DNA from: Chaetoceros tenuissimus | Taxonomy: Eukaryota; Bacillariophyta; Thalassiosirophyceae; Chaetocerotales; Chaetocerotaceae | Length of the DNA stretch: 64,000 bases | NCBI GenBank assembly: GCA_021927905.1 | Contig: BLLK01000071.1 | Coordinates: 55,344-119,343 of the forward strand | Reading direction: 5' to 3' | Shown: positions 46,840-49,893 of the stretch, piece after piece | How positions within the stretch are numbered: the first letter of the stretch is position 1 | How the letters are laid out: every line of letters begins with the position of its first letter | Translations under genes and position numbers: made by a program | Notes under the pieces: model-generated | Told to the model about the DNA's origin: nothing | Seen by the model: only the letters and a program-made list of their open reading frames with translations | The model's database searches: none

Positions 46840-47268
46840 TTCTTTGGAAAAACCAAATGCTCCTCATGTGGGTCTAAATCTTGAAATAAAGCTACTTGAA
46901 GGTACCGGAGTATTATGATAAACGTTTGGCTGGATGTAAGTAGATGTGAAGAAGTGTGTATGATTACCAGCACTTAGTTGCCGCAGTGCTTCTTTTCTCT
47001 CATCTCATCTTTTTCCCCGTATGTTGTTATCTGCAGACATCAACAGTAAAATTTCTTGTGTGTACTTCGTAGGTACGTACATGCACCGAACAAAAGGGAT
47101 CCTATGAAGTGTCAATGACAAAATATCTTCATATCTTCTCATTTTTAAAAAATTTAAATTTAAACCTCGCCTTCCTCTTCAGATGCAGACCTGGAAGATT
47201 GCAAACAAAAGGTAGACCACAACCATCCATAAAATTCATTATCCAAATACTCTCTTCTTTTTTCCAAG
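46840..47268. other. Divergent intergenic region
   Basis: Shared promoter region of the F-box gene (-) and the secreted KEPT-repeat gene (+). No gene in it. Confidence 0.4.
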
Positions 47269-48287
47269 ATGAAATTCAGTACCTCAATCGCTCTCTCTTC
47301 ATTATTCACCATTGCTCATGCGTTACCTGACCAAATCATCAACAATAGATGTTTGGATAATGTTAGTGGCATTAGAAATCAAGTAAGTATCATTTTGAAT
47401 CAAGTCACCGTCCTCTCAACTCCACACATTCAACTCAATAACTGAACTTTGTTCATAGGTAAAGATCCAATGTAGAGTGCCTAATGCTGAACTCTTTGGC
47501 AATGGACAAGAAGGAACCTACAATTGCTTCAATCCAACCGATGTAGGAGAATGCAAGACCATCAAAGTAAAAATTCAGTACAAGATGATGAATGTGAATA
47601 ACAACATTGATACAACACTCATAGCTAAAAAGACCACCTTGAATTTCAATGGAGCTGAGCTGATTGATTTAGACAATAACTTTGAAATCGGTCGAAATAG
47701 CAACCATAAAGAAAACGAAGAAGTTGAAATCAACACTTGTGACAGACACTACGTGGATCTCACCATGAAACTTCAGCCAATTATTCCAAATGGGGAGGGG
47801 ACAATTGCAGATGATCAGTGGCGCAATAGCAAATGTAAGTGTTGCTTTCATTGTGATTTCTTCCGATCACAAGATACAATTTTTCACTTGTTTTCTTCTC
47901 AATATAGGTGGAATCGGAGGAATCATCTCTCTTTGTGGAGATAACTGTGAGAACACTGACCCTCCTGCAACCGATGAATGGGATACTACAAAAGAGGGAA
48001 ACTACATGTACAATGTAGATGAGGGCTTTCCAGGACCGAGAGACGATTTTGATTTCGACGTTGATGGTAGACCACGCGGTGCTACTAAAGATAAGGATTT
48101 GAAGGATCCTAAAGCACCTTCTATGGCGAAGGATGTGATTGTAAAATCACCATCTGTCGGTAAAGGATCCAAGGAACCAACTCTTGGAAAGGGAACGAAA
48201 CAACCGACTCTTGGAAAGGGAACAAAGGAACCAACAGTAGTGAGAAATTTGCAAAGTAGAAAAGGAAGAAAAGTGTTGAGAGCGTGA
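47269..48287 (+). CDS. Secreted protein with C-terminal GKGTKEPT repeats, unknown function
   Basis: Three exons, 47269-47382, 47459-47834, 47908-48287 (289 residues). The signal peptide MKFSTSIALSSLFTIAHALP is followed by a region with several Cys (VKIQCRVPNAELFGNGQEGT, CDRHYVDLTMKLQP) that may form a small disulfide-bonded beta domain. A Gly-rich hydrophobic strand CGIGGIISLCGDNC comes next, then a basic, low-complexity tail with tandem units (KGSKEPTLGKGTKQPTLGKG). This style of secreted protein with K/P/T-rich tail is common in diatoms; the function is unknown. Confidence 0.75.
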
Positions 48288-48754
48288 GGTATTCTTTGTT
48301 GCCATGGAATCATTTTTGCTCTAGGTCAATCATGAAGGGTTGAGATTTACAACTTGTAACCTCTATTACCAAATTGAGGAGTTGTGATGTTTTTTCGCCA
48401 AATGAATGAAAGCTCTAGATAGGTAAAATAACAGTTATGTTCACCTTATAAATGGTTTGGCATACTCCATCACAATATTACTTTTTTGTATACCAAGTAA
48501 TAATTGTATAAAAGAAGAGTAGGTCACATAGTTCAAAACAGTGTATAACAAAATAATTTCTAGTTTAGATTCAAGGATTGGTTGCAACGTCAAGATTTGG
48601 ATTTGGTAAAACAGAAAGAAAGTAGATGTTGCACTACCTATTCATCAAACTGTGATATCACATACAGAGAGTCTACAGTGAAATCTATTAGTTCATCTCA
48701 ATATGGTCATTCATACTTCTCATCCAAACCATTCACAGCATATCCAAGTTTTCC
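48288..48754. other. Convergent intergenic region; 3' UTR of the DsbA-like gene (minus)
   Basis: Holds the 3' UTRs of two convergent genes. If the DsbA-like gene encodes selenocysteine, a SECIS hairpin should lie here on the minus strand. By eye I found only weak partial matches, for example a 6-bp stem AGTATG/CATATT with an AA-containing loop next to ATGA and GA near 48680-48725. Its stem is too short to call. Confidence 0.4.
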
Positions 48755-49519
48755 TTATTCATTTGATAATTCATCAAAGATGCCTACAAAAGTAGATTTA
48801 CTCTGAGCACCAGAAAGGCCGTATGGTGCTTGATTCCATCCATCAGACGATTCATCCTCAATCCCAATCACAAAAAAAGGGACTCCCGAGATGCGATACT
48901 GTCTTCTACCCTTTTCAATTTCAGCCTTGACATCATCTTCACCATCATTGCTTTCCAAGTAAGATCTCAAATCTTCTACATCTTCGACTCCTAATGTTTC
49001 TCCAACAGATAGGAGAGCTGGAACTAGACTAATGTTCTCACCTTTTTCATACAATGCTTCAAAAAGAGCTTCGTTACTGCGATTTGTATCAATATTGCAT
49101 TTTTCTTGACAATATTTGACAAACCGATGAGCTTTCAAGGTATTGGGCCAGCTCTTCCAATTGGCAAAATTAGCACCTGATTTTCTGCCTTCTTGCTTTA
49201 GGTGACGAGTCCATCCTGAAGATCCCCATCTACGTATATTATACGCTTCGAATTCTTCTCCATTGACATTAGTATTTGGATCAATCATGTATGGTTTCCA
49301 CTCTACGTCAATCTTAGTGGTTGCCTTTTGAGCAAATGCTTGAATGGCACTCGTCAGCCTCTTTTGACCGACATGACACCAAGGTCACGCTAGATCGCTA
49401 AACACTTTTACCTTTATGCTTGTCGCCATTGCTTCTGTTTGTTGAATCGCTACTGTTGATAGGAATACCAAGACTGCAGGTAATAGGAGAAAAGATGGTC
49501 TGGGAGAAATCAAGCGCAT
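48755..49519 (-). CDS. DsbA/FrnE-like thioredoxin-fold oxidoreductase with in-frame TGA (candidate selenoprotein)
   Basis: Reading from ATG 49519: a signal-type N-terminus (MRLISPRPSFLLLPAVLVFL), then IKVKVFSDLA-(TGA)-PWCHVGQKRL. FrnE/DsbA2 proteins read FSDxxCPWCxxGxxRL at this place, so the TGA at 49387-49385 (codon 45) stands exactly at the first catalytic Cys. The frame is open before it (44 codons) and after it (209 sense codons to the TAA at 48755). The family C-terminal half is intact: helical insert, then the cis-Pro motif GVPFFVI near residue 215 and the terminal GAQSKSTFVGIFDEL. Predicted 254 residues with Sec45. Role: thiol-disulfide or isomerase chemistry, possibly in the secretory system. 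The alternative is a Cys-to-stop mutation. Confidence 0.8.
49385..49387 (-). other. In-frame TGA at the active site (candidate selenocysteine codon)
   Basis: TGA followed by CCT TGG TGT (Pro-Trp-Cys), replacing the first Cys of the CPWC motif. No other in-frame stop occurs between the ATG at 49519 and the terminal TAA. Confidence 0.75.
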
Positions 49520-49893
49520 TCAGTAGCTCACACTTCCACCAAGTTAATTTCTTTTTGACGTGTACCTAGGTCAGGTAACCGAACTAATCTAATAGTTGTT
49601 CAAATTCAAATGAATAGATACTCTTATACTTTTGAACTTCTCATCTCATCAGCCATCAGCTGCAGGCTGCAGACGTCATTTTTACGAAATTTGTTCTTTT
49701 TCTCTGGGGGTATGGAAAGGGGGTTAGGGTTGGGATCATCTCTCAGCCACCAAAATCATGAGCAAACGCCACAAACAAAAAGAACAACCGAAAATGAAGT
49801 TGAAAGTAATAGGAATGAAAGTCCGTGAACAACAACAATCTAAATCAACTCTCATTAGCACATATATATTTTTTCGAGAAAAACTATTCAACA
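49520..49893. other. Divergent promoter region
   Basis: Between the DsbA-like gene (-) and the BUD22-like gene (+). Short inverted GCAGGCTGC/GCTGCAGGC-type sequence near 49660; no gene. Confidence 0.4.

Follow-up and report, generated by a model that had tools for sequence, protein, structure and literature searches.

A predicted selenocysteine-containing DsbA/FrnE-type gene, with a candidate SECIS element, in the diatom Chaetoceros tenuissimus

INTRODUCTION

DsbA-like proteins that carry selenocysteine (Sec) in the active site are a known family in algae, bacteria and marine invertebrates. Sec-DsbA proteins with a UXXC motif were reported from bacteria of the Sargasso Sea (PMC1088965), then from Ciona and amphioxus in a paper whose available passages cite Micromonas and bacteria as earlier cases (PMC2874816), and also from other work on marine invertebrates (PMC3473315). 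DSBA is further listed as one of the Sec proteins with the widest distribution in algae, in an account that gives 20–44 selenoprotein genes for diatoms (PMC7539508). An earlier note on the DNA analyzed here, made from the letters alone, had mentioned reports of Sec-containing DsbA-like proteins, and these four papers, as far as their accessible text goes, bear this out.

The text passages of the algal survey place Sec-DSBA in algae, as here, and name no diatoms with Sec-DsbA (PMC7539508). DsbA is not named in the accessible part of the 2007 selenoprotein list of Thalassiosira pseudonana (PMC2375036), and the term “seleno” is absent from the main text of the Chaetoceros tenuissimus NIES-3715 genome paper (PMC8613185). 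None of the titles listed by a literature search on Chaetoceros and selenoprotein contains either word.

The gene described here lies in a 64,000-nucleotide stretch of C. tenuissimus contig BLLK01000071.1, referred to below as the window. It shares with the eukaryotic Sec-DsbA genes of Ciona, amphioxus and Micromonas the DsbA family, Sec (here predicted) in place of the first CXXC Cys, and a SECIS (here a candidate) in the 3′ flank, as far as the available passages describe them (PMC2874816). It differs from those systems in its diatom host and in belonging to a set of three diverged genes of one genome that all bear the TGA, with U-P-N-G in one case; in addition, the apical loop of its SECIS candidate is read here as AA, whereas Ciona intestinalis and amphioxus have CC (PMC2874816, same passages). 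The bacterial DsbA-like selenoprotein of COG2761 has the same UXXC motif, but in the portion of that report available its SECIS follows just after the UGA, whereas the candidate described here is eukaryotic in form and lies in the 3′ flank (PMC1088965). Since Sec-DsbA proteins with UXXC are already in print, the window gene adds to a known family. For this predicted diatom member a SECIS candidate is now located.

RESULTS

An open frame interrupted by a single TGA at the active site

The minus-strand frame runs from ATG 49519 to TAA 48757–48755 and encodes 254 residues with a single internal TGA, at 49387–49385, in the context FSDLA-U-PWCHVGQ. This agrees with the earlier note, which had described the frame as open except for one TGA placed at the first Cys of a CPWC site; in the PDB sequence match, the TGA falls opposite the Cys that opens CPWC in FrnE. 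Intact family sequence on both flanks, including the cis-Pro loop, had been claimed as well, and we find that homology spans the TGA and that GVPFF, with Pro214, is intact. Downstream of the TGA the coding sequence is undamaged, being open to the TAA, with homology up to residue 248 of 254. The conventional ORF list holds only a 177-residue piece from ATG 49288, so that an ordinary ORF call gives a protein lacking the active site. See Table 1 for the coordinates of all features.

TGA also works as an ordinary stop in this DNA. Of the 29 ORFs in the window that reach 257 amino acids or more, which are open frames rather than proven genes, 18 end in TAA, 6 in TGA and 5 in TAG. The GC content of the window is 36–41% across 4-kb blocks. 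The placement of the internal TGA is more than chance, as it falls on one particular codon of 254 and on the same column in two diverged relatives.

The N-terminal extension reaches a hydropathy of up to 2.69 over 11 residues, and its pLDDT is below 50 at residues 6–8, 10–15 and 19–24 of the AlphaFold model. A second in-frame ATG at 49429 (Met31) marks the start of the conserved part. Because the hydrophobic stretch precedes Met31 and the conserved part starts there, the protein may exist in a secretory-route form as well as in a shorter one. The hydrophobic N-terminus suggests a secretory or plastid-route location for the protein.

Table 1. Features of the selenoprotein gene candidate and its 3′ flank (window positions)
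Feature	Position	Strand	Basis or remark
Predicted DsbA/FrnE-type selenoprotein gene (254 residues, predicted Sec45)	48755..49519	-	Frame and homology
TGA codon 45, predicted Sec, first residue in C/U-P-W-C	49385..49387	-	TGA column shared with L002 and L003
Cys48 of U-P-W-C, predicted resolving residue	49376..49378	-	Cys in 80/80 kept (best 80 of at least 513) bacterial relatives
cis-Pro loop proline 214 (GVPFF)	48878..48880	-	Pro in 80/80 kept bacterial relatives (70/80 carry the cis-Pro search pattern)
N-terminal extension with hydrophobic stretch, signal-peptide-like	49430..49519	-	Hydropathy and pLDDT
SECIS candidate, 43–97 nt after the stop	48658..48712	-	Pattern fitting 8/9 of the genome’s Sec genes tested
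SECIS core GAATGAC	48712-48706	-	T of ATGA at 48709
SECIS helix II, 9/10 positions paired	48705-48696 with 48670-48661	-	
SECIS apical loop AA	48693-48692	-	
SECIS 3′ TGA	48660-48658	-	

Assignment to the DsbA/FrnE branch

The Pfam family PF01323 (DSBA) covers residues 37–222 across the TGA (E 3.6e-22), scoring 79.5 bits at a cut-off of 25.6. No NCBIfam model reached its cut-off for the window protein. The closest match in a PDB sequence search is FrnE of Deinococcus, over residues 30–248 (E 1.8e-19). For an AlphaFold model we put Cys at the TGA codon (mean pLDDT 89.7), and in a Foldseek search against the PDB the FrnE structures rank 1–5 (best E 3.2e-15). The modeled fold is a thioredoxin fold with a helical insert, FrnE being nearest, and the hallmarks of DsbA/FrnE are present, namely UPWC in place of C-x-x-C and a GVP cis-Pro loop. 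Within the thioredoxin fold, sequence and model thus assign the window protein to the DsbA/FrnE branch, and it is predicted to be a disulfide-exchange enzyme. COG2761, the group of the bacterial DsbA-like selenoprotein, we take to be the FrnE group. FrnE of Deinococcus radiodurans (PDB 5cnw and 5cp1), the closest solved protein in both sequence and fold, has the same CPWC site; it carries Cys where the diatom protein has its predicted Sec, and the diatom protein has a hydrophobic N-terminal extension beyond it.

Relatives and the TGA column

Bacterial relatives were collected by an alignment query of the genome_contigs set, of which the best 80 of at least 513 were kept. Among these 80, the column of the TGA is Cys in 80/80, as is the column of the second Cys. 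The query combined two search patterns, one for the active site, in which the first Cys is obligatory, and one for the cis-Pro loop. Since the active-site pattern requires that Cys, we checked the kept relatives for bias by pattern: 11/80 match the active-site pattern, and the other 69 came through the cis-Pro pattern alone, with Cys in 69/69. In 5/80 the matched region contains a stop, which comes before CPxC in L055, L074 and L102 and late in L089 and L091. When genome_contigs and viral_contigs were scanned with the protein only, no relative could be confirmed, and the alignment query of viral_contigs gave none. Four phage records match weakly, at 23.5–24.7% identity.

We also searched the diatom’s own assembly (41,027,912 bases, 68 contigs). 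It holds three matches to the window protein, the window gene included, each with exactly one internal TGA. The motifs at the shared column are U-P-W-C (window), U-P-Y-C (L002) and U-P-N-G (L003). Identity to the window protein is 28% for L002 and 25% for L003. The match of L003 is weak (E 5.2e-4 in the search with the window protein), and its part after the TGA scores 23.4 bits, below the Pfam DSBA cut-off of 25.6. Random stops at other positions in homologues had been named in the earlier note as an argument against Sec. We find instead that L002 and L003 have their TGA at the same column.

The third TGA-bearing DsbA-like gene, L003 (1324–2235; G000:C54), carries U-P-N-G. As its resolving Cys is gone, it would be a Sec-only enzyme. 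We give roughly even weight to a broader proposal, in which the three would form a family of Sec-DsbA/FrnE enzymes with different N-termini and probably different compartments, L003 being Sec-only and monothiol-like, with a selenenyl intermediate resolved by another thiol.

Sec machinery and other Sec genes in the genome

The machinery set searched comprised tRNA-Sec, SepSecS, selD and selB. Five tRNA-Sec matches lie above the Rfam cut-off, and ARAGORN reads the anticodon TCA in three of the five. SepSecS (E 5.6e-113) and selenophosphate synthetase (selD/SPS; E 1.5e-75) were matched with no stop inside. The best selB match, L033, was rejected as eEFSec, as by its signature it reads as a presumed organelle-type EF-Tu; L035, which we take to be eEFSec-like on the same kind of evidence, was used in its place. 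The earlier statement that diatoms possess Sec machinery therefore holds for this genome, through tRNA-Sec, SepSecS, selD and the eEFSec-like L035.

The genome holds other Sec genes as well. These include a SelT gene with CTSUG, three GPx genes (ASKUG, ASRUG and ASEUG), two MsrA genes (ASGUFW and ALGUFW) and a SelM gene with CSGUA. Each of the nine Sec genes used in the SECIS work has its TGA at the redox position. A further MsrA candidate, L027, was rejected as a Sec gene: its first exon reads GCFW, with Cys, followed by a GTAAGT donor, and for this reason it was counted as a control.

A SECIS candidate in the 3′ flank

An initial scan for SECIS elements, filtered strictly on minimum energy, gave no candidate for either GPx gene. 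The scan was then relaxed and rebuilt from the sequence downstream of the remaining Sec genes. Side-by-side reading of these 3′ flanks shows a common element in which [GT]AATGA[CT] is followed by a helix and, on its 3′ side, by TGA. The resulting descriptor places the core at most 200 nt from the stop and sets the helix energy at −4 kcal/mol or lower. It fits 8/9 Sec genes and 0/12 control genes of the same genome, with the qualification that it was written after all nine Sec genes had been seen; the pattern is the same when the window gene is left out. One of the 12 controls has a core without a helix. The one Sec gene missed is MsrA L029, which has a GAATGAC core and no helix partner by the descriptor. 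GPx L021 (ASEUG) stands outside the nine-gene count because its match is partial and its frame stops early. The controls were 12 fetched genes without Sec, including MsrA L027 and leaving out the selB matches L034 and L035; for L024–L026, L030 and L031 the control stop was the first in-frame stop past the match.

The earlier note had found no clear SECIS by eye. We correct this, as the descriptor locates a candidate at 48712–48658, whose form recurs in most other Sec genes examined. It contains an ATGA core, helix II, GA and apical AA, while helix I is not established. An Rfam search of 47000–49600 at E ≤ 10 returned no SECIS_1 match. A search of the whole genome with RF00031 also gave no match, with 133/890 candidates scored; given that the genome has clear selenoprotein genes, this is weak evidence either way.

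Across both strands of the window, two matches to the descriptor reach E ≤ −6. The one after this gene scores best (−7.9), and neither reaches E ≤ −8. Dinucleotide-shuffled windows give 0.67 matches per window at E ≤ −6 and 0.20 at E ≤ −8. We also shuffled the 70 bases after each core. The helix p value is 0.012 for the window gene, the weakest among the eight fitting genes, and 0.0005–0.009 for seven of the other eight Sec genes; Fisher’s combination over those other eight gives 3e-12, with L029, which has no helix, entered as p = 1. The folding energy of the window element is ordinary (z 0.89 for 86 nt and −0.13 for 60 nt). Over the 86 nt, the structure of minimum energy differs from the SECIS fold.

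DISCUSSION

We consider it very nearly certain that the frame encodes a selenoprotein of the eukaryotic kind, belonging to the DsbA/FrnE branch; in this reading a downstream SECIS directs Sec at TGA codon 45, Sec45 would attack and Cys48 would resolve. The earlier note had proposed Sec at this codon, a proposal now supported by the SECIS candidate, the TGA at the same column in two genomic relatives, Cys in 80/80 of the kept bacterial relatives, and the Sec machinery. In the proposed mechanism, the SECIS 43–97 nt downstream of the TAA, which we infer to be present in the mRNA, would recruit the Sec-specific elongation factor and Sec-tRNA. Codon 45 would then be translated as selenocysteine; on the sequence evidence, Sec is almost certainly inserted there. 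By analogy with established DsbA chemistry, Sec45 would most likely make the attack in thiol/disulfide (selenenylsulfide) exchange at the U-P-W-C site, and Cys48 would resolve the bond.

Chance nonsense mutation, code reassignment, an intron and editing were all rejected as readings of the TGA at codon 45. TGA is one base apart from the Cys codons, and a nonsense mutation or sequencing error could in principle turn an ordinary Cys-type DsbA/FrnE gene into a pseudogene or an artefact. However, the diverged L002 and L003 have TGA at the same column, the remainder of the frame is intact, and a SECIS-like element follows the gene, which makes such an event very unlikely. The frame is open whichever residue the TGA encodes, and another residue could therefore be supplied without Sec machinery, by general TGA reassignment or programmed read-through. 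Against this stand the long window ORFs that end in TGA (6/29), the SepSecS and selD matches with no internal stop, the tRNA-Sec genes in the genome, and the redox position of the TGA throughout the nine Sec genes; we regard this explanation as still less probable than a mutation or error.

Removal of the TGA by splicing or RNA editing, leaving Cys in the mature protein, has a precedent of sorts in that introns do occur in this genome, as in MsrA L027, where the GCFW exon is followed by a GTAAGT donor and TGAs lie within the gap. In the window gene and in L002, however, motif residues directly border the TGA on both sides, which leaves no room for an intron and makes one that excises the TGA not credible. 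Editing would have to act on the same codon of three genes, a less simple account than the insertion of Sec in an organism equipped with Sec machinery. This is the least probable of the three alternatives, to the point of being negligible. Sec insertion at codon 45 is the reading we adopt.

Read in this way, the locus gives a diatom a predicted disulfide enzyme with Sec, which may follow the secretory route. The SECIS form appears to be specific to this genome and was missed by the Rfam search. Marine algae are known for large selenoproteomes, and the gene is in line with this.

The tRNA-Sec matches also deserve comment. The five tRNA-Sec-like genes of this one genome (L004–L008) are non-identical; several such genes occur also in the diatom Fragilariopsis cylindrus. 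In L007 (1501–1586; G000:C34:1126986-1127071) the anticodon reads from the loop as TTA rather than TCA; position 33 is C, the base following the acceptor stem is A, and ARAGORN makes no call. If active, L007 would decode UAA; its non-G73 base suggests a pseudogene by the G73 criterion, as given in the available part of PMC5330540. L008 (1501–1598; G000:C54:1808110-1808207), likewise with no ARAGORN call, is 12 bases longer than the others, and its extra bases lie in the anticodon loop, at the intron position. An intron-bearing tRNA-Sec is described from Daphnia, where the same portion of that source presents it as the first in eukaryotes (PMC5330540).
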